Assembly: GCF_025909975.1 (NCBI RefSeq) | Contig: NZ_JAPCIO010000005.1 | Location: 124,001-188,000, forward strand | Direction of reading: 5' to 3' | Source of the DNA: Flavobacterium lacisediminis | GTDB taxonomy: Bacteria > Bacteroidota > Bacteroidia > Flavobacteriales > Flavobacteriaceae | DNA length: 64,000 bases | In this document: positions 8,454-56,656 of the stretch, one piece after another | How the letters are laid out: every line of letters starts with the position of its first letter | Position numbering within the stretch: position 1 is the first letter of the stretch | Notes under the pieces: generated by a model | Databases searched by the model: none | What the model saw: only the letters and a program-made list of their open reading frames with translations | Told to the model about the DNA's origin: nothing | Made by a program: the position numbers and the translations under genes

Positions 8454-8538
8454 GGAGAAATGGCAGAGTGGTCGAATGCGGCAGTCTTGAAAACTGTTGA
8501 CTGTAACAGGTCCGGGGGTTCGAATCCCTCTTTCTCCG
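8454..8538 (+). tRNA. tRNA-Ser (anticodon TGA)
   Basis: The acceptor arm GGAGAAA (8454-8460) pairs with TTTCTCC (8531-8537), with discriminator G at 8538. The anticodon loop CTTGAAA gives TGA (Ser), and the T-arm contains GGTTCGAATCC. The long variable arm is typical of class II tRNAs such as tRNA-Ser. CCA is not encoded. A tyrosine integrase gene lies 288 bp downstream, so this tRNA 3' end is the likely integration target. Confidence 0.95.
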
Positions 8539-47009: not shown

Positions 47010-47459
47010 ATGAAATTAAAAAGTTTACATACAACCGAAGTTTTCGAGTTTTACGCACCTGATTATTCAACAGAATTAGAACTACCATATGTTGATGTAG
47101 GTATTAGTGCCGGTTTCCCTTCTCCTGCAGATGACTTTATCGAATTAACAATAGACTTAAATAGAGAATTAATAAAACATAAAGACAGTACTTTTTTCGC
47201 CAAAGTAAAAGGGGATTCCATGAAAAACGCAGGTATTTTCGATGGCGATTTACTAATCATTGATAAAAGCTTAGAACCGCAAGATGGAAAAATAGCGATT
47301 TGTCAAATAGATGGAGATTTTACAGTAAAAAGAATCAAAAAAGAAAATGGAGTAGTTTGGTTAATAGCTGAAAATGAAGACTACAAACCCATAAAAGTAA
47401 CAGAAGAAAACGAACTAATGATTTGGGGAATAGTAATCCATAGCATTAAAACATTTTAG
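47010..47459 (+). CDS. umuD: UmuD-like S24 peptidase (LexA family)
   Basis: 149 residues. The self-cleavage site is Ala34-Gly35 in SAGFPSPADD, catalytic Ser70 in KGDSMKNAGI and Lys107 in FTVKRIK. UmuD' with UmuC forms translesion DNA polymerase V. It follows the metal module terminator and starts a small operon in which the next gene (hypothetical) begins 6 bp after its stop and umuC follows. Confidence 0.93.
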   Translation: MKLKSLHTTEVFEFYAPDYSTELELPYVDVGISAGFPSPADDFIELTIDLNRELIKHKDSTFFAKVKGDSMKNAGIFDGDLLIIDKSLEPQDGKIAICQIDGDFTVKRIKKENGVVWLIAENEDYKPIKVTEENELMIWGIVIHSIKTF

Positions 47460-47871: not shown

Positions 47872-49131
47872 ATGTTTGCCTTAGTAGACTGCAACAACTT
47901 TTACGCCTCTTGCCAAAGAGTATTTGAACCACATTTAATTGGAAAACCAGTAGTAATACTTTCCAATAATGATGGTTGTGTTATTGCGCGTTCTAACGAA
48001 GCTAAAGCATTAGGTATTCCAATGGGTGCTCCTGCATTCGAATTCAAAAAACTATTCGAAGACAATAATGTATTTGTCTATTCTTCAAACTATGCACTGT
48101 ATGGTGACATGAGCAGCAGAGTAATGAACATACTTTCAACTTTTACACCCGATATTGAAGTATATAGTATTGATGAAGCTTTCTTAAAATTTGAAGGATT
48201 TGAATTCTTTAACCTGGAAGAATACGGAATAAAAATTCAAAAGACTGTAACTAAAAATACAGGAATTCCCATAAGTGTAGGATTTGCACCAACCAAAGCA
48301 CTAGCTAAAGTAGCCAATAAAATAGCAAAGAAGTTCCCTGAACGAACTAAAAGTGTCTATGTGATAGATACTGAAGAAAAGAGAATAAAAGCCCTTAAAT
48401 GGACTAAAATTGAAGACGTTTGGGGTATTGGACGAAAACATGCAAAACGCTTACAAGCAGTTAATGTTTTTAATGCATATCAATTCACACAATTACACGA
48501 TGATTGGGTTAGAAAAGAAATGGCAGTTGTAGGATTGAGATTAAAACATGAATTAGAAGGAAAACCAACATTGGATTTAGAAACTCCAAAAAGTAAAAAA
48601 ATGATTGCTACAACAAGATCATTTGAAAAACCAATGACAAAATTGGAAGATATTTCAGAACGTATAGCAACGTTCACAACTTCCTGTTCCGAAAAACTAA
48701 GAAGACAAAACAGCCATTGCAACATGATTATGGTTTTTCTTCACACCAACTATTTCAGAAAGGACCAACCTCAATACTCAAGAAATATAGTAATCAATAC
48801 CGATTTCCCAACAAACTCCACAATCGAGTTAAACAAGTATGCTCAAATTGGATTAAAAGCAATATTCAAAGAAGGCTACAATTACAAAAAAGCAGGCGTA
48901 ATAGTCATGGGCTTAACCCCAAACGACCAAACCCAATTATCACTATTCAACACCTCAAATCCAAAACACCAACCCCTAATGTCAGTAGTTGATAAACTTA
49001 ATAGAGCTTATGGCAAAAACAAAATCAAGTTCGCCAATCAATCCCTTGGGAGACAATGGAAAATGAAACAAGAAAAATTATCAAAATCATACACAACAAG
49101 ATTAGACGATATTATAACAATCAAAATTTAA
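47872..49131 (+). CDS. umuC: UmuC, Y-family DNA polymerase V catalytic subunit
   Basis: 419 residues. Catalytic residues D6 (FALVDCNNF) and D101-E102 (SIDEAFLKF) are present, with the little-finger region in the middle and a UmuC-specific C-terminus. It replicates past DNA lesions. The 3' end (49029-49161) recurs, in decayed form, at 54661-54781, marking the borders of an inserted segment. Confidence 0.95.
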   Translation: MFALVDCNNFYASCQRVFEPHLIGKPVVILSNNDGCVIARSNEAKALGIPMGAPAFEFKKLFEDNNVFVYSSNYALYGDMSSRVMNILSTFTPDIEVYSIDEAFLKFEGFEFFNLEEYGIKIQKTVTKNTGIPISVGFAPTKALAKVANKIAKKFPERTKSVYVIDTEEKRIKALKWTKIEDVWGIGRKHAKRLQAVNVFNAYQFTQLHDDWVRKEMAVVGLRLKHELEGKPTLDLETPKSKKMIATTRSFEKPMTKLEDISERIATFTTSCSEKLRRQNSHCNMIMVFLHTNYFRKDQPQYSRNIVINTDFPTNSTIELNKYAQIGLKAIFKEGYNYKKAGVIVMGLTPNDQTQLSLFNTSNPKHQPLMSVVDKLNRAYGKNKIKFANQSLGRQWKMKQEKLSKSYTTRLDDIITIKI

Positions 49132-49208
49132 AAAAAATGTATATATTTAATGATATAAAAAGTTAGTTGCAAGGTTGTTGCGACTCGATAATCTAACCAC
49201 AATTAACT

Positions 49209-49706
49209 ATGACAAAAGACACTCCAATAATAAATATCTTAACATATCAACTTCCGTATAATTTAGCTAACCAAATCTATAATGAGTATCAAAGTAGGCT
49301 TAAAGAAACAAACTATTTAATAGAGAATTATAAAACATATAAATCACTAAGAGATAGTTCAAGAACAATTGAACTTTTATTGTCATTATCTATTTTTCAT
49401 AGAAGAGTAATAACTAATTTAGACGGAGCAGTCAAATTCTACGGAACGGTAACTAAAAAAGGGAAAACTGACACTATAAGAATTGGAAGCTATGACTTAA
49501 CTTTTGAAGAAAAAAATAAAATACTTGCAGTAGTAATTAATTTTAATCACTTACTTGAAAGATTTTCCATTCCACCAATAGTTATGGAGTATCACGAAAC
49601 AAGAGAATTTCTAAAGAAAATAATAACATTGAAATCTGAACTTCAAAATGGCAATAAAGAAAAGCGAGAAGGAAACAAAAATAACGAAGAAGATATCCCC
49701 TTTTAA
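49209..49706 (+). CDS. Hypothetical protein, partner of PD-(D/E)XK-like gene
   Basis: 165 residues, no signal peptide. Helical, with YNLANQIYNEYQSRLKETNY and a charged end (KSELQNGNKEKREGNKNNEE, then DIPF). Its 3' end overlaps the next gene by 59 bases, a sign of a coupled pair. No family recognised. Placed between umuC and a Gabija-like operon, so a defence role is a guess. Confidence 0.55.
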   Translation: MTKDTPIINILTYQLPYNLANQIYNEYQSRLKETNYLIENYKTYKSLRDSSRTIELLLSLSIFHRRVITNLDGAVKFYGTVTKKGKTDTIRIGSYDLTFEEKNKILAVVINFNHLLERFSIPPIVMEYHETREFLKKIITLKSELQNGNKEKREGNKNNEEDIPF

Positions 49707-50436
49707 AGATTGGATTGAATTTGAAAAGGAAATTAGAACTTTTGCAAATAAATATAAAACTACAGTTGTTAATCAAGCAAAACGAACAAGTGATTATTTT
49801 GAAATGAGTTGCTTCAATTACATTGTAAGATTTTATGAATTAAATGGTTATGAATTGGAGGCTACAAATTTACAAGCTGGTAGAAGGTATAAATATAAAT
49901 GTTCTCCATCTGGTATTCAATCAAATTTTTCACACTTTGAAGCAACTTTTGATTCTGGATCTGAAAAGATTACTTTTGAAATTCACCACAATCTTGCAGT
50001 ACAATCTTCTCACGATAAAAATATTTTTACATCTCCAGATATTGCAGTTATTAAAAAGGATAGAATACAATATACTAAAAGTTATTATGATACAAATACC
50101 ACTTTTTCTTTTGTAAATAATAATGATTTAATGACATTTTGTGAGGTTAAACAATTTAATCCTTTTCCAGAATTATTGTTTAATTTCATTGGAGTTTTAA
50201 ATGAGTTAAAAAAAGAATACATGATTGACAATGGAATTGAACACATTCCAATTCATATCGCACCAAGTTTAATGATATCCGGAAAGTCTAATAAACAAAC
50301 TGACAATATTAAAGCTTCAATTGAAAAACGATACTGTGTTAACATCCTTTTTGATTTATTCTATAGCTCAACTTATACTTTTTCAAAGGGAAATATAACA
50401 AATTTAAGAAAAACGGGGAAAAAACCCATCAACTAA
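49648..50436 (+). CDS. PD-(D/E)XK nuclease-like protein, possibly C-terminally truncated
   Basis: 262 residues. Central motifs: SPDIAVIKKDRIQ (about 130) and TFCEVKQFNPFPELLFNFIG (about 168-187), matching the PD...(D/E)xK layout, followed by a helix with LNELKKEY. This predicts a restriction-type nuclease. The stop (50434-50436) coincides with what looks like the 3' boundary of a group II intron (ATCGAGTAG, 50436-50444), so the natural C-terminus may be lost. It overlaps the 49209 gene by 59 bases. Confidence 0.6.
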   Translation: MAIKKSEKETKITKKISPFKDWIEFEKEIRTFANKYKTTVVNQAKRTSDYFEMSCFNYIVRFYELNGYELEATNLQAGRRYKYKCSPSGIQSNFSHFEATFDSGSEKITFEIHHNLAVQSSHDKNIFTSPDIAVIKKDRIQYTKSYYDTNTTFSFVNNNDLMTFCEVKQFNPFPELLFNFIGVLNELKKEYMIDNGIEHIPIHIAPSLMISGKSNKQTDNIKASIEKRYCVNILFDLFYSSTYTFSKGNITNLRKTGKKPIN

Positions 50437-50520
50437 TCGAGTAGACGGCGAAGCCATTAACTGACGGCGTGCACCTCTCACAATACCGTGCGTACGTGTC
50501 ACGTACTCGGCAGTTAGTAA
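50437..50520 (-). mobile_element. Remnant of group II intron 3' end (domain V/VI-like)
   Basis: On the minus strand the sequence reads a GC-rich hairpin of domain-V type: CTGCCGAGTACGTGACACGT (part), continuing ACGCACGGTATTGTGAGAGG, then a GC-rich stem and the end TCTACTCGAT. Such ends are typical of bacterial group II introns. The upstream reverse-transcriptase part is absent. Beyond it, 50521-50769 has no gene, only fragments without motif and AT-rich leader. Confidence 0.5.
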
Positions 50521-50769
50521 AGAGTTGGGTTAAATTGTAAATGTAATTCGGTTAAGGATAAAAAACCTCTTTTCTTCAAGCGTTGTAAAGTGATGGTTTT
50601 GCCTAAAATAGGGCTTTGTGCAATAGCCAAATCTGATGAGATGCTTAAGTAAAAATACAACTATTTCACTATATTTGTTAATAAGATTGTGAGGTTTTTT
50701 CTCAGTCTGTCGTTTATTGCAAGTGTAAAGAGATGTCTACAGACGAAATAATTTTAGAAAACAAGTAAA

Positions 50770-52569
50770 ATGCATATATCAAACATTAAACTTTGGAACT
50801 ATAGGAAATTTGGTTCTGATAGTGAAATAGACCTTGAAAAACCAAATTTGGATTTAAACCTTAACAAAGGGTTGAATGTGATTATTGGGGAAAACGATTC
50901 AGGGAAAACTGCAATTATTGATGCGGTAAAACTTGTTCTCAAAACTCATAGTTATGATTATATAAGAGTTGAAAACAAAGACTTTTTCAAGGATGCAAGT
51001 CGTTTCAGGATTGAACTAATTTTTGAGAATTTAACTCCTAACGAAGCTAAAAACTTTACAGAATGGCTAGGGTGGAAAGGTACAGGAGAAGATGCAAAAC
51101 CTTTTCTTAAAATAAATTATGATGTAAGACAACAAGATGAAAAAATATTGCCAGCAGATGTAAAGGCGGGCATTGATGAAGATGGTTATCTTCTTACAGC
51201 AGAAGCTAAAGAATATCTGAAGGCAACATATTTAAAACCTTTAAGAGATGCGGAAAATGAATTAGTTGCCAAACGTAATTCAAGATTATCACAAATTCTC
51301 TTAGGCGATACAGCTTTTAAAGGAAAAGAGAAAGAACACGAACTTGTAAAGATATTTGAGAGCCTTAGTGAAGAATTAAAAAAGTATTTTAAAGGTGAGT
51401 TTGAAACCACTTTAACCAATGAAGCAGGAGAAGAACAAACAATTAGGCCACTTGAAGGAAAACAAATTAAAGATAAAATAGACGGATATATTAAAGGTTT
51501 CTATGGCAATAACTATGAAACAGAATTTAACGCCACATCAAACGATATAAAGAGCATACTTGAAAAATTAACTTTATTCTTGAAAGACGAACCGAATCCA
51601 GGATTAGGCACATTGAACAGATTGTTTATGGCTGCTGAGTTGCTTCATTTGAATAAATCAAATTGGAGTGGTTTACGCTTAGGATTAGTGGAAGAATTAG
51701 AAGCCCATTTACACCCACAAGCACAAATGCAGGTAATTGAGGCTTTTGAAAAGCAGGATACAATCCAACTTATTCTTACAACACACAGCCCCAATTTAGC
51801 TTCTAAACTAAAACTTGAAAATTTAATTATCAGCAATAATGGATATTGTTTTCCAATGGGAAATACATTCACTAAATTAGGTTCAGACAATTATAAATTC
51901 TTAGAAAAATTTCTTGACACAACCAAAGCAAACCTATTTTTTGCAAAGGGTGTAATTTTAGTTGAAGGATGGGCGGAAGAAATCCTTATTCCAAGCATTG
52001 CTAAGGCAATTGGAATCAATCTTACTGAAAAAGGTGTATCGATTGTAAACATTGGTCATACAGGGTTTGACCATTATGCGAAGATATATCTAAGAAATGA
52101 AGAGCCCTTTATGAAAATTCCTGTTGCTATTGTTACAGATTCTGACGTAAGAGATTATGAGAAGATCGGAGACGATTATTTAAAAAGAGACGCAAATACT
52201 GTTCAACAGGAAGAACAGCAAAAAATAGCGAATATAAATGGAAAGGCGGAACAAATTGTAAAATATTTTGCTGCCTCAAAATGGACGTTGGAATATTCAT
52301 TATTCAAATCAACAAGTTTAACAGCGGTCTTTCAAAATGCAGCTAAAACAGTCCATACAGGAACAGACTGGAATACCGACTTTGAAAAAGCACTTGCCAA
52401 AAAGTTAATTAAAAAAAGTCTTAAAAAAACAGAAATTGCTTATCAAATTGCAAACGCTATTGATGAAGATTTAATTAAACCATTTCGAACAATTCAGATT
52501 GCCGTAGATGATGATGCCGATAGTATAAATTACCTTATAAAAGCAATTAAATATGCCGCAGGAAATTAA
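50770..52569 (+). CDS. gajA: Gabija-like GajA: OLD-family ATPase/TOPRIM nuclease
   Basis: 599 residues. N-terminal ABC-type ATPase with Walker A GENDSGKT (40-47) and a Walker B/signature region LVEELEAHLHPQAQMQVIEA. C-terminal TOPRIM domain with E399 (ILVEGWAEE) and D457/D459 (VTDSDVRDY). OLD-family nucleases paired with a UvrD helicase define Gabija, where GajA senses nucleotide depletion and nicks phage DNA. It overlaps the helicase gene by 17 bases. Confidence 0.85.
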   Translation: MHISNIKLWNYRKFGSDSEIDLEKPNLDLNLNKGLNVIIGENDSGKTAIIDAVKLVLKTHSYDYIRVENKDFFKDASRFRIELIFENLTPNEAKNFTEWLGWKGTGEDAKPFLKINYDVRQQDEKILPADVKAGIDEDGYLLTAEAKEYLKATYLKPLRDAENELVAKRNSRLSQILLGDTAFKGKEKEHELVKIFESLSEELKKYFKGEFETTLTNEAGEEQTIRPLEGKQIKDKIDGYIKGFYGNNYETEFNATSNDIKSILEKLTLFLKDEPNPGLGTLNRLFMAAELLHLNKSNWSGLRLGLVEELEAHLHPQAQMQVIEAFEKQDTIQLILTTHSPNLASKLKLENLIISNNGYCFPMGNTFTKLGSDNYKFLEKFLDTTKANLFFAKGVILVEGWAEEILIPSIAKAIGINLTEKGVSIVNIGHTGFDHYAKIYLRNEEPFMKIPVAIVTDSDVRDYEKIGDDYLKRDANTVQQEEQQKIANINGKAEQIVKYFAASKWTLEYSLFKSTSLTAVFQNAAKTVHTGTDWNTDFEKALAKKLIKKSLKKTEIAYQIANAIDEDLIKPFRTIQIAVDDDADSINYLIKAIKYAAGN

Positions 52570-54586
52570 TATATCGGATGAAGATATTCGCTATGCCGAA
52601 AAGCTTCTACTTCCCTTAGGAAAAGAGTTTGATGATGAACGAAAAAACTTTATTCGCAACTTAAACAACATAGATTTACAAGCGGTTCCTGGTAGCGGAA
52701 AAACAACTGCTCTACTTGCAAAATTGGTTATTTTGGAAAGAAAACTTCCTTTTTCAGATGGTTCAGGTATTTTGGTTTTATCTCATACTAACGCAGCCAT
52801 TGATGAGATAAAAGAAAAGATACAGAAGCATAGTCCAAAACTTTTTTTATATCCAAATTTTGTTGGCACTATACAGAGCTTCGTTGATGAATTTTTGGCC
52901 ATTCCAATATACAATCTTGGTTTTAGAAAGAAGTTGAATTGGATTGATACGGAAAGATACCAAGAGGAGCTAGTAAAGCTTTTTAATATCATAGCTTGGA
53001 ATGAAGATTATGACCAACCTACAAAATGGTTTTATCAAAGACACATCAATAGAGCTACTTCAGAAGCAAATAATAACAATAATCTTAAAAAAGAAATTTG
53101 CAAAAAACTTATAGAAAATGAAGTTCGAGGCCTGTATTTTGATTTTATAACTAAAGAAATAAAAAACATTAATGGCGATGTTTTATTGAGAGACAAAACA
53201 AATAAAAAATTTATCGGTTTAAAAACAATAATCGTTGAGGTGCTCAAGAAAGGTATAATGTCATACGATTACGCATACCATTTTGGTGAACTCTATCTTC
53301 ACAAGATACCAGCGATTAAACAAATCTTACAAAAACGCTTCCCTTTTGTCTTTGTTGATGAAATGCAGGATATGGACACCCACCAATATAATTTATTGGA
53401 AAAAATATTTTATAATGAAGGTAATAGCATTTCAGTAATTCAACGAATTGGTGATAAAAATCAGGCAATATATAATTCAGTCAAAGCAACAGATGTTTGG
53501 ATTGATAGATTAGATGTATTAAGATTAAGCGGTAGCCAACGACTTAGTAAGCCAATCGCAGATATTGTGAAAAAATTTGCTTTACATAGTGATGCGGATT
53601 TTGATATTGTCGGTCTCAATGAGTGTGTTCTAAAGCCTCATATATTGGTCTTTGAAAATAAAAATATTACTAATGTCATTCCTTTTTTTGCCCAAATAGT
53701 TAAAACTTACAAAGAAAATGGCATCTTAACCAATCCCGACAAATCGGTTAAAGTTATTTGTTGGAATACAGACTGGAAAGATGATTTTGCCAGCCGACAA
53801 GATGAAGTAAAACTAAGATTAGAAGATTATCATAAAGGTTTTAAAAAAGAAAAAAACAAACCTAAACAAGATTATGATTGCCTGAAAGATTATTTGCTAT
53901 ATTACGATAAGAACAAAAAGACATTAGAACCTTTGCGCAAAAATATATTAAGTGCTTTCCTGAAAATATTACGTTTAGAAAACATTAATACATTAGACCA
54001 ACGACCTTATACAAAAAAAAAATTGATTGATTTTATCAGAGAAAAGGAATTTCAAAAATTAGATGAGTTTAATTTAAATTTGTACAATTGGTCAATCGGT
54101 ATAATCAAAGGAAAGACATATGATGTTTGGAACGAGATAAAAGCATACACGATTAATTTCTTTGCTATCTTTTCTGAAAATGCTCTTTCAGCTAGTTTAA
54201 CTTTCATCAATAATGACCCAGTAGGAATGCCTATCGTCAATGAAGAAGTATTGGAAAACACCAATTATTATAAAGTAGACGGGCTAGAAATTGAAATCAC
54301 AAGTGTTCACTCAGTTAAAGGTCAAACACATTGTGCAACATTGTATTTGGAATCATACTACCACAGCAATTACGAATCTGAAAGATTAACTCCTCAATTC
54401 TTGGGTAATAGTTTCAATGACAATAGAGTGCATCATAAAAGTTCAATAAAAATGGCATATGTAGGCTTTTCACGACCTTCGGATTTACTTTGTATTGCAA
54501 TTCATAAAGACAGATTTAATAATTTATTAAATAAAATAGATACAGATGTTTGGGAAATAATTGAGGTTACAAATATTGATGAATAG
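52553..54586 (+). CDS. gajB: Gabija-like GajB: UvrD/Rep-type SF1 helicase
   Basis: 677 residues. Walker A VPGSGKTT (45-52), Walker B FVDEMQDMD (about 266-274), and C-terminal motifs VHSVKGQTH and YVGFSRPSDLL (about 635-645). SF1A helicase; the paired GajB of Gabija activates on DNA termini. It is longer than described GajB proteins of about 490-500 aa, so this is a divergent or extended version. Coupled by overlap with gajA. Confidence 0.85.
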   Translation: MPQEINISDEDIRYAEKLLLPLGKEFDDERKNFIRNLNNIDLQAVPGSGKTTALLAKLVILERKLPFSDGSGILVLSHTNAAIDEIKEKIQKHSPKLFLYPNFVGTIQSFVDEFLAIPIYNLGFRKKLNWIDTERYQEELVKLFNIIAWNEDYDQPTKWFYQRHINRATSEANNNNNLKKEICKKLIENEVRGLYFDFITKEIKNINGDVLLRDKTNKKFIGLKTIIVEVLKKGIMSYDYAYHFGELYLHKIPAIKQILQKRFPFVFVDEMQDMDTHQYNLLEKIFYNEGNSISVIQRIGDKNQAIYNSVKATDVWIDRLDVLRLSGSQRLSKPIADIVKKFALHSDADFDIVGLNECVLKPHILVFENKNITNVIPFFAQIVKTYKENGILTNPDKSVKVICWNTDWKDDFASRQDEVKLRLEDYHKGFKKEKNKPKQDYDCLKDYLLYYDKNKKTLEPLRKNILSAFLKILRLENINTLDQRPYTKKKLIDFIREKEFQKLDEFNLNLYNWSIGIIKGKTYDVWNEIKAYTINFFAIFSENALSASLTFINNDPVGMPIVNEEVLENTNYYKVDGLEIEITSVHSVKGQTHCATLYLESYYHSNYESERLTPQFLGNSFNDNRVHHKSSIKMAYVGFSRPSDLLCIAIHKDRFNNLLNKIDTDVWEIIEVTNIDE

Positions 54587-54660
54587 AACACCCCCGATAC
54601 TGAGTGATTCCCATCGCGTGGTAATTAGTACAAATCAACATTCCATACGCTACCTAACTA

Positions 54661-54781
54661 TTCGTCAATCAATTCATAGGCAGACAATAGAAAATGAAAG
54701 AAGAAAAGTTATCAAAGTCATATACAACAAGAATTTACTAAATTATTAAAAAGTTGTAAATATTTTAAGATATTTAATAGT
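54661..54781 (+). pseudogene. umuC: Decayed duplicate of the umuC 3' end and its flank
   Basis: 54661-54733 aligns to umuC codons for FANQSLGRQWKMKQEKLSKS, then YTTR (49029 onward), at about 85% identity by eye, with a stop in place of Trp. Similarity continues past the umuC stop (TTAAAAA...GATAT blocks) to about 54781. This implies that the DNA between (about 49162-54660) was inserted next to umuC, or that an old umuC copy was left behind. Confidence 0.7.
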
Positions 54782-54805: not shown

Positions 54806-55348
54806 ATGAATGTAAAAAAATATCAAATAGAAGAAAACGATAAAATTAGAATTACAGAATTATTTCAGTTAATTCCAAGCATAATAGAAAAAAATAACAT
54901 TTTGGAAAAAAATGAAAACTTGTTTTCACAAGTCAAACAAGAAATAAAATTAATTTACAAAAAACAAGAAGTTCCTACAAAAGAACAGAAAGTGTACTTA
55001 AAAAAGGTTAGATTAAATTTTGAAATTGTTCAAAAAGAATATTTTGTAGCTGTAAGTGCTTGGAATTTAGAGATGGATAAAATTATCGAAAAGTATAATT
55101 ACATTACTTTAAAAAAGTTCCTTGTAAAAAATCCATTAAAATCAATTGGAATAAATCCTGATTTAACATTTTCAGTAAACACAAAGAAGGTTGCAGAATT
55201 AATGAAGGTTCCTATACTACAATCTTTATATTCAGGCGAGCCAAAATTTCTAAATAATTATCCAGAAGATTGGCTTTTGAAAGTTTACATTGAAATTGAC
55301 AAAATGTCAACTCGAAAAAATTTCAAAATAGATATTAGTAAATTGTAA
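54806..55348 (+). CDS. Hypothetical protein, 180 aa
   Basis: 180 residues, helical and Lys-rich, with no signal peptide or recognised motif (ITELFQLIPSIIEKNNILEK; LKKFLVKNPLKSIGINPDLT). Starts 24 bases after the umuC remnant, so it may be the first gene of the original downstream region. Confidence 0.55.
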   Translation: MNVKKYQIEENDKIRITELFQLIPSIIEKNNILEKNENLFSQVKQEIKLIYKKQEVPTKEQKVYLKKVRLNFEIVQKEYFVAVSAWNLEMDKIIEKYNYITLKKFLVKNPLKSIGINPDLTFSVNTKKVAELMKVPILQSLYSGEPKFLNNYPEDWLLKVYIEIDKMSTRKNFKIDISKL

Positions 55349-55551
55349 AAAAATGTTATAAAAACTGTATGTTTCATTGGCTAATTTCATTATCCTTCTG
55401 TAAATCAGCTGTTGAATGTGTTGTTTTGTTATTTTAGTGTTATTTTGGTCATTAAAGTTTGAAGATATAACGTATTATTAAAACAATTTCCACATTCGCT
55501 ATAAACATTATTTTAGAGAAAAATAATTAGTTCTGATGTTTTAAAAATTCA

Positions 55552-55600: not shown

Positions 55601-56656
55601 ATGCTAAAAAAATTACTCTTTCTATTAGTCCCAACTTTATTCTATGCCCAAATTCCAGCATATTACTCTTCAATTGATTTTAGTCAAGAAGGTGATTATT
55701 TAAAAAACCAATTGACTACGCTTATAACAAACACACATACTACAAACCTTCCCTATACAGCAACAGGCGTTACAGATACTTGGGATGCATTATATCAAAC
55801 CGATTTAAACCCAAGTAACACAAACAATGTGCTTTTAGTTTACGGTTGGAATGATACTGATGCAGATATTACAAACGATTATTCCAGAGCTCAAACTTCT
55901 TCTTGTCATACATCTTCTTGTAGTGGTTTATGGGTAAGAGAACATGTTTACCCTCGTTCATTAGGTACACCTAATCTTGGTTTTGAATTCGCAGGTGCCG
56001 ATGCACATCACTTGCGTTCTATTGATAGTGATAGAAACAATTCAAGAAGTAATAGAAAATTTGAAGAGGGTAGTGGGATTAATATGTCATACATTACACT
56101 AGCAGGGAATTGGTACCCAGGTAATGAATGGAAAGGCGATGTAGCAAGAATGATTATGTACATGTATGTTAGATATCCATCACAATGTTTACCAAACAAT
56201 GTTGGTGTAGGTAGTACATCATATTCCAATTATGGGGATATGCCAAACGTGTTTTTAGATTGGAATGCTCAAGATCCAGTTTCACAATATGAAATGAACC
56301 GAAACAATATTCTTAACACAATACAAGGCAACAGAAATCCTTTTATAGACAACCCATATCTAGCAACAATAATTTGGAATGGACCACAAGCAACAGACAC
56401 TTGGGGTGTATTATCTTCAGATGATTATACACTATCAAACAACCTAATTTACCCAACAATCACTAAGGACTATATCTATATCAATAATACTGAAAACAAG
56501 ACATATAATTACTCTATTTACAACACTCTAGGTCAATTAATAACAATAAATACTACAACAAATACAATAGATTTATCAGGCAATTCAAAAGGTATCTACT
56601 TTATTACACTACAGTTAGAGAATAAAACTAAATCTTATAAAGTAATTTTGAACTAG
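55601..56656 (+). CDS. Secreted endonuclease I (EndA/NucM) with T9SS sorting domain
   Basis: ATG 55601 (MLKKLLFLLVPTLFYAQIPA) gives a signal peptide; the earlier TTG at 55580 overlaps the -7 promoter box. 351 residues. Endonuclease I core: WVREHVYPRSLG, DAHHLRSIDSDRNNSRSN (the His-metal finger) and EWKGDVARMIMYMYVRY. C-terminal ~75 residues (YPTITKDYIYINN; YNTLGQLITIN; KGIYFITLQLENKTKSYKVI) are a type A sorting domain for the type IX secretion system. Degrades extracellular DNA and RNA. Confidence 0.92.
   Translation: MLKKLLFLLVPTLFYAQIPAYYSSIDFSQEGDYLKNQLTTLITNTHTTNLPYTATGVTDTWDALYQTDLNPSNTNNVLLVYGWNDTDADITNDYSRAQTSSCHTSSCSGLWVREHVYPRSLGTPNLGFEFAGADAHHLRSIDSDRNNSRSNRKFEEGSGINMSYITLAGNWYPGNEWKGDVARMIMYMYVRYPSQCLPNNVGVGSTSYSNYGDMPNVFLDWNAQDPVSQYEMNRNNILNTIQGNRNPFIDNPYLATIIWNGPQATDTWGVLSSDDYTLSNNLIYPTITKDYIYINNTENKTYNYSIYNTLGQLITINTTTNTIDLSGNSKGIYFITLQLENKTKSYKVILN

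Follow-up and report, generated by a model that had tools for sequence, protein, structure and literature searches.

A probable attI-like docking site behind umuC in Flavobacterium lacisediminis and a candidate integron variant with dispersed attI sites

Integrons are usually viewed as one integrase, one attI site and one array of cassettes, and they are considered rare in Bacteroidetes. According to citations in two later papers (PMC12444791; PMC12901181), Loot et al. described in 2024 a further route, the insertion of cassettes into genomes at attG sites. In deltaattI-type cassettes of class 1 and class 2 integrons, an attI sequence lies within the array behind an open reading frame (ORF), according to the accessible part of their description (PMC12901181). 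Bacteroidota are counted among the phyla with integrons in the available sections of two papers (PMC8618304; PMC2426708); the available text of the IntegronFinder 2.0 paper names one complete Bacteroidetes integron, that of Salinibacter ruber (PMC9024848), and an excerpt of another study states that IntegronFinder found no integron in a Tenacibaculum (PMC10013915). The literature that we searched described neither a Flavobacterium integron nor dispersed attI sites, which is weak evidence of novelty, as preprints and most subscription papers were outside its scope. Here we analyze a stretch of 64,000 nucleotides from Flavobacterium lacisediminis (contig NZ_JAPCIO010000005.1, positions 124,001 to 188,000 of the forward strand; hereafter the window), in which the DNA repair gene pair umuDC is followed by a row of accessory genes that includes the Gabija genes gajAB and a second copy of the umuC 3' end. 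The 3' flank of umuC probably serves as an attI-like docking site for integron-type cassettes, with the recombinase gene at a distant place in the same genome. This reading draws on features that the sequences document: homologous modules, cassette boundaries, termini that pair, cargo that varies and a recombinase gene beside attI.

The umuC flank and its variable cargo in relatives

We compared the umuC loci of relatives, keeping 80 of 274 loci (L, G and C numbers below are our handles for loci, genomes and contigs). Variable DNA begins about 30 to 110 bp behind the umuC stop codon, at a GTT, and two forms of flank lie ahead of it. The short flank, ending in ACTA|GTT, is nearly identical in F. 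cauense, F. celericrescens, one F. odoriferum locus, F. cucumis and a umuC-tail copy on contig C6 of F. lacisediminis, and the umuC flank of the window has diverged from it by mutation. The long flank (about 105 bp, ending in GA|GTT or AA|GTT) was found in F. tibetense, F. sp. LMO8 and the other F. odoriferum locus. Past the GTT, the DNA differs between relatives, with one exception: a single first cassette recurs in F. celericrescens and at both F. odoriferum loci, and it thus stands behind the short flank in F. celericrescens and behind the long module at one F. odoriferum locus. By eye, we judged an attI-type module to be present behind umuC at 9 of the 29 loci listed. Three umuC loci from Bacteroidetes metagenome-assembled genomes (L153, L154, and L155) have a different common flank, which ends in AAAACAAGTT and is followed by divergent DNA; it is possibly another attI type.

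The next genes common to these loci encode an SRAP-like MCFHSK protein and endonuclease I. Between umuC and these genes, gene content differed among the loci compared, namely, the window, F. celericrescens, two loci of F. odoriferum, F. sp. LMO8, F. succinicans, and F. caseinilyticum, and umuC was intact at all of them. The endonuclease I gene lies to the right of differing cargo in the window, in F. celericrescens, at one F. odoriferum locus, and in LMO8. In F. branchiophilum, the SRAP-like gene stands directly behind umuC, and the site therefore looks empty, while the gene lies further downstream in F. celericrescens, F. succinicans, and F. caseinilyticum. The original prediction, made by a model from the letters and ORFs of the window alone, had offered a hotspot for defence genes beside umuDC as one of two explanations; differing gene content and the empty F. 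branchiophilum site bear out a hotspot with variable cargo, and the conserved chromosomal order that it named as grounds for refutation was not found.

attI modules, cassette ends and the recombinase

The long umuC flank and the module behind the recombinase gene are homologs; in F. tibetense, these two modules are 92.6% identical over 81 bp. About 100 bp of sequence is common to the modules, including the one behind the recombinase. Many of them carry a TATATTTG-like motif ahead of the boundary, a possible Pc promoter given the consensus TAnnTTTG. We built an attI model from 28 modules, all of them long forms. As RNAalifold returned no consensus pair in the 28 aligned modules, the model is one of sequence only. 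It matched 125 of the 199 genomes of the genus at an E value of ≤0.001 and, at ≤1e-5, 116 of 199 genus genomes versus 14 of 349 in a family-wide sample that holds at least 3 genomes from the genus itself; 12 of these 14 matches came from other genera. Among the matches listed, attI lies 7 to 28 bp behind the recombinase gene or a remnant of it, on the same strand, in 24 genomes; these pairs were picked by hand, and 6 of the 24 genomes had also supplied rows of the model. In a few cases, the recombinase gene beside attI is broken or contains a stop (G117, G128; G078, G112, G149). An attI match was present in 61 of the 73 genomes with a close recombinase (E ≤ 1e-118) versus 64 of the 126 others (Fisher p 3.7e-6), an association that is clear but not strict. 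A looser recombinase cutoff (E ≤ 1e-45) weakened it (82/116 versus 43/83, p 0.0076).

This distribution bears on the alternative that we are looking at ordinary attG-like secondary-site insertion and that the modules, rather than being true attI sites, are a repeat family or spots in the genome that cassettes use by chance. The accessible part of one source (PMC12444791) describes attG as sites in the genome that belong to neither the attC nor the attI class, and attI-like matches in genomes that lack a close recombinase agree with such a view. A common stretch of about 100 bp, however, is beyond what a loose consensus would give, and matches to the model are frequent in the genus (116/199) and rare family-wide (14/349). 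We therefore consider the attG alternative improbable.

We next compared cassette ends. We infer a crossover at G|TT from where the variable DNA begins. Because the attC pattern with which the cassette rows were found itself fixes GTT and AAC, positions 1 to 3 were left out of the pairing score. Over 19 cassettes, positions 4 to 10 of the start agreed with the reverse complement of the cassette's own end at a mean of 6.05 of 7, compared with a mean of 3.19 and a maximum of 4.26 in 2000 re-pairings; in 2 of the 19 pairs, an undetected attC is skipped, which lowers the score. At position 11, the start has an A in 18 of 19 cassettes and the end strand has a C in 18 of 19 (both in 17), and positions 12 and 13 agree again (17/19 and 18/19). 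The L boxes of 28 pattern-selected attC candidates reached a pairing score of 11.4 versus 6.4, with a maximum of 7.5 over 500 rounds. Paired termini, L boxes and the A.C mismatch are attC features.

We then scored attI sites for a partner end in their own locus under a strict rule that includes the A.C mismatch. Such an end was present for 22 of 47 sites; when starts were swapped, 40 rounds gave a mean of 1.5 and at most 4. At some loci, the sequence stops so close behind the site that a partner end could not show. Five of the 10 umuC-type sites had a partner (L146, L147, and L151, all with the same cassette; L149; and L160, which is weak). The decayed F. lacisediminis site L307, two F. cucumis repeat copies, and the G139 sites L313, L316, and L318 (no GTT) and L319 were left out of this test, and the boundary of the F. 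caseinilyticum module was set by hand.

On contig C33 of F. lacisediminis, a tyrosine recombinase gene (open frame of 364 aa; a 346-aa recombinase at C33:113862-114899) is followed by a same-strand row of small ORFs. The protein scored 200.3 bits with TIGR02249, below the IntI cutoff of 265, and 223.1 with NF040815 (XerA/integron integrase), just above the cutoff of 220. Between two aligned stretches, IntI4 has 66 residues (181 to 246), which we take to be the IntI-specific insert, and the recombinase has 24 (249 to 272). With a score below the cutoff and most of the insert absent, we rejected filing it as a member of the IntI integrons. None of the 199 genus genomes passed the TIGR02249 cutoff; sub-cutoff matches occurred in 198 of them and mean little, since they also occurred in all 14 control genomes. 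The residues R, K, H-x-x-R, H, and Y, presumably the tyrosine recombinase active site, are visible in alignments to solved XerA-like proteins and to IntI4. At L134:9862-10080, about 72 N-terminal residues of the recombinase, ahead of its SAM-like domain, gave no Pfam match. Recombinase ORFs of 580 to 630 aa occur in several species (L299, L300, and G188:C5 among other places), and in F. celericrescens (L137), a longer recombinase ORF (about 600 aa) precedes ten consecutive attC sites.

attI sites also lie away from the recombinase gene. Matches were merged by hand across strands, 12 matches in F. lacisediminis giving 7 places and 23 in G139 giving 14. Of the seven places in F. lacisediminis, one is behind the recombinase, five have a cassette behind other genes, and one is decayed; at the five cassette sites, a matching end was found at 9 or 10 of 10 positions, and four of them pass the stricter partner rule. 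The anchor genes, named from reading their sequences, are hpf-like, PepSY-type, htpG-like, TonB-receptor, transketolase, lpdA-like, and Crp/Fnr-like genes. A TonB-receptor/PepSY anchor pair in G067, G023, and F. lacisediminis is followed by different first cassettes, as is a 390-aa PepSY-type anchor in F. tibetense, LMO8, and G188. A transketolase-like gene adjoins the recombinase in F. tibetense and a one-cassette attI in F. lacisediminis (L283, L302).

Proteins of the first cassettes matched PADLOC in 5 of 10 cases, at 4 of 9 sites; the ten were chosen by hand, mostly as long ORFs, and give no unbiased rate of defence genes. The matches are an AriA-like ATPase and an AriB-like protein, a PARIS-type pair encoded by the first cassette at an attI of G139 (L308:3051-5304), PDC-S06 at L312, an HNH-type effector at L315, and an AAA ATPase at L319, where the module is partial.

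The row in the window and the second umuC tail

The features of the window that bear on this system are as follows.

47010..47459, + strand: umuD-like S24 peptidase gene, upstream of umuC (Pfam Peptidase_S24, E 3.6e-33)
47872..49131, + strand: intact umuC (Pfam IMS, IMS_C, DUF4113), anchor gene of the probable docking site
49132..49161, + strand: short attI-like flank with a promoter-like TATATTTA, a mutated form of the ACTA|GTT flank; GTT follows directly
49162..50437, + strand: cassette 1 with two overlapping ORFs (165 and 262 aa); start GTTAGTTGCAAGG, complementary end at 50437
50438..50631, - strand: group II intron remnant at the cassette end (RF00029 match at 50436-50515)
50656..50711, + strand: right end of a repeat, with TATATTTG; GTT follows directly, at 50712; 80-92% identity to F. 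cucumis repeats
50770..52569, + strand: gajA of Gabija (PADLOC GajA, E 3.9e-225)
52553..54586, + strand: gajB of Gabija (PADLOC GajB, E 2.6e-256)
54607..54660, + strand: left part of the umuC-tail repeat (54607-54751 versus F. cucumis repeat, 77.6% over 147 bp)
54661..54745, + strand: copy of the umuC 3' end (72 bp, 86% identity)
54746..54779, + strand: decayed short attI-like flank, from comparison by eye with short flanks; GTT follows directly, at 54780
54806..55348, + strand: 180-aa ORF, presumed cassette-borne (no Pfam, PADLOC or NCBIfam match)
55357..55439 (about), + strand: decayed attC site, matching attCs of the F. celericrescens and F. lacisediminis rows
55601..56656, + strand: endonuclease I gene (Pfam Endonuclease_1), right flank common to relatives

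The end of cassette 1 (50437) is complementary to its own start at 9 of 11 scored positions, and 9/11 or better at this junction is reached by 5 of the 1230 GTT sites of the window. Its two ORFs gave no Pfam match over the cutoff and no PADLOC or NCBIfam match, leaving the "nuclease pair" of the original prediction without support from these profiles. A single-sequence fold of the 262-aa ORF was of low confidence (mean pLDDT 31.8), and a PD...EVK-like motif in it is therefore an impression by eye. An intron remnant had likewise been proposed: on the minus strand, 50436-50515 matches the Rfam group II intron below the gathering score of 40 (27.2 bits, E 0.0019), which supports this part weakly. 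A stretch of DNA behind the umuC-attI of F. tibetense aligns with the remnant over 197 bp at 79.7% identity. At gathering scores, the sole Rfam match over the window was a tRNA, the tRNA-Ser at 8454, and this single tRNA excludes a tRNA attachment site at umuC. The gajAB genes, also named by the prediction, were confirmed as a full Gabija pair with strong PADLOC matches. Behind the second umuC tail, the decayed attC aligns with one attC from the row in F. celericrescens at 75% identity over 84 bp (E 8.5e-9) and with one from F. lacisediminis's own cassette row at 73.5% over 83 bp. On this sequence evidence, the window holds a partly decayed, partly frozen cassette row that includes gajAB.

The second copy of the umuC end was predicted correctly. 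Positions 54661-54732 align with 49030-49101 over 72 bp at 86.1% identity (blastn against the whole window, E 1.8e-17; next best match for the umuC-end query, E 0.005). The local alignment score was 102, and 500 dinucleotide shuffles gave a mean of 25.2 (s.d. 3.6) and a maximum of 43, so that shuffles and blastn both rule out chance similarity. Translated, the copy comprises 24 codons with one internal stop, and a weaker alignment extends beyond the stop codon to 54791.

Such tails are not confined to the window. The F. lacisediminis genome (2.86 Mb, 36 contigs) has another on contig C6, where the remainder of umuC is absent. A search of the 199 genus genomes with the last 50 umuC residues revealed orphan tails in F. 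cucumis (G032) and G124 and other short umuC-tail frames, for example in G008, G026, G085, and G107. In F. cucumis, a distance of about 750 bp, which holds a small ORF, separates two tails, and the repeat runs from a cassette end GCTAACAGC or similar through about 150 bp of other DNA and the umuC tail to the TATATTTG flank, which ends in AACAA|GTT ahead of the next ORF. The repeat matches 51 genus genomes, mostly in short pieces only, and copy numbers are lower bounds, as 3 candidates were scored per genome. Several contigs of draft genomes end near umuC or umuC tails, as repeats would cause. On contig C6 (G000:C6:11808-19245), ORFs resemble, by eye, TerD-like and von Willebrand-type tellurite resistance proteins; the idea that C6 is an obvious plasmid found no support, as no replication gene was seen by eye in its ORF list, for which no profile search was made.

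The other explanation in the original prediction was insertion into umuC with reconstitution of the target, whereby an element carrying its own umuC end would have inserted at the 3' end of the gene and left the old end as a right-hand remnant. Two umuC ends do bracket the cargo, and umuC is intact. The breakpoint, however, lies behind the umuC stop codon and thus outside the gene, and no integrase was found between the two copies, the recombinase gene being on another contig. Moreover, the tail repeat occurs twice around a small ORF in F. cucumis and as a lone tail on C6, while F. cauense and F. celericrescens have cargo and no comparable second tail (whole-genome searches below E 1e-10 returned only the umuC locus). 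We therefore regard this course of events as very unlikely; the second umuC tail belongs to an array repeat, not to a reconstituted target. Plain homologous or illegitimate recombination, with chromosomal order otherwise conserved, deserves hardly more credence. It could account for tail copies with different left edges and for the G124 tail, which lacks an attI-like flank, yet such a flank follows the other five of the six tails compared, and the order behind umuC is not conserved.

How the tails spread is a closer question. The left edge of the F. cucumis tail, AAAC|GTT, is one base off umuC's own CAA|GTT, and the C6 copy has a different left edge. The DNA to the left of the F. cucumis tail starts directly after a cassette end (AACAGC) and matches a similarly placed module in several genomes. 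A module starting with GTTCCTATGTAAAGCA or similar stands directly behind cassette ends (AACAGC) in L141, L070, L071, L072, L073, and others and is perhaps the end of an attC-targeting insertion sequence. In G139 (L125, C1:1000001-1020000), five consecutive repeats of about 2.5 kb are interspersed with small genes; the repeats hold an IS91-family transposase (Zn_Tnp_IS91, Y2_Tnp) and a tyrosine recombinase and begin within or near cassette ends. The left part of the repeat at 50656-50711, which is absent from the window, matches these transposase-bearing repeats. The umuC tails may thus have been spread by an attC-targeting insertion sequence that carried neighbouring DNA, an explanation that leaves the docking-site reading in place and has only slightly less than an even chance. 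It is favoured by the F. cucumis repeat, whose left part starts right behind the cassette end, and by the IS91-family transposase genes that alternate with small genes in G139. The F. cucumis tail edge, in turn, fits recombinase action, the C6 edge differs, and no complete insertion sequence with a umuC tail was seen. As far as the sequences go, the tail edge fits the recombinase and the adjacent module fits an insertion sequence, and two routes remain.

Several observations weigh against an attI-like site served by a recombinase encoded elsewhere. The strict partner test was failed by 25 of 47 attI sites. In the window, only cassette 1 has the expected partner end; none was convincing for gajAB and the 180-aa ORF, and the gajAB start reaches 9/11 only at scattered places within 4.5 kb, which shows the chance level over that distance. 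The attI model, built from long forms, misses the short umuC form. The recombinase itself falls below the TIGR02249 cutoff for IntI. Of the 126 genomes without a close recombinase, 64 still have attI matches, and attI sites can therefore outlive or lack this recombinase. In G139, with its 14 attI places on 2 contigs, the nearest recombinase is just 45% identical, and the site behind it is not among the matches to the attI model; of its places, 10 were tested, with 3 passing the strict partner rule, while a further 3 lack a GTT and 1 was excluded.

Taking these points into account, we still favour the docking site. Cassettes would join at G|TT directly behind the promoter-like module and so come to sit downstream of umuDC, where the module would be a promoter and the cargo would be expressed. 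The recombinase would act on distant sites, and several docking sites would be spread over the genome in addition to the attI beside its own gene. A "umuC tail + attI" repeat, to which the tail at 54661 would belong, would have turned into a spacer in the cassette rows of this clade. On the basis of sequence, we call the system a putative new integron variant, with a Xer-type recombinase, dispersed attI sites and presumed cassette activity. Tentatively, and with slightly more doubt than belief, we propose a distributed integron, in which one Xer-type recombinase would act in trans on many attI sites behind different resident genes, umuDC being one of them, and would place accessory and defence cassettes at many chromosomal positions under local transcription, while mobile "umuC tail + attI" units would seed new sites.

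Comparison with known systems

If this reading is true, an integron-like system with dispersed docking sites and phage defence cargo has been overlooked in much of the genus, and tools that require IntI may miss such systems. It would also suggest that cassettes can recombine without the need for the IntI-specific insert, so that attC recognition could be tested with a second, simpler enzyme.

The Gabija system consists of gajA (ATPase and TOPRIM) and the adjacent gajB (UvrD-like helicase), both of which are full length here with strong profile matches. Here the pair differs in sitting in a cassette row behind umuDC, where the sequence shows that a candidate defence pair is carried.

The system resembles integrons in its recombinase gene beside a primary site, its same-strand rows of mostly single-ORF cassettes, its putative G|TT crossover, and cassette ends with paired R and L boxes. 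It differs from sedentary chromosomal integrons in the recombinase (200 bits versus a TIGR02249 cutoff of 265, and 24 versus 66 residues), in a terminal pairing that spans 10 bp and resumes for 2 more past a conserved A.C mismatch, and in the many attI sites away from the recombinase. With attG insertion it has in common that cassettes are found at many genomic places, but the attG consensus is short and loose, whereas the target here is a conserved module of about 100 bp. As in deltaattI-type cassettes, as far as the accessible part of their description extends, an attI sequence lies within an array here; the difference is that a fragment of the anchor gene umuC accompanies this attI and that the setting is chromosomal and in Flavobacterium.

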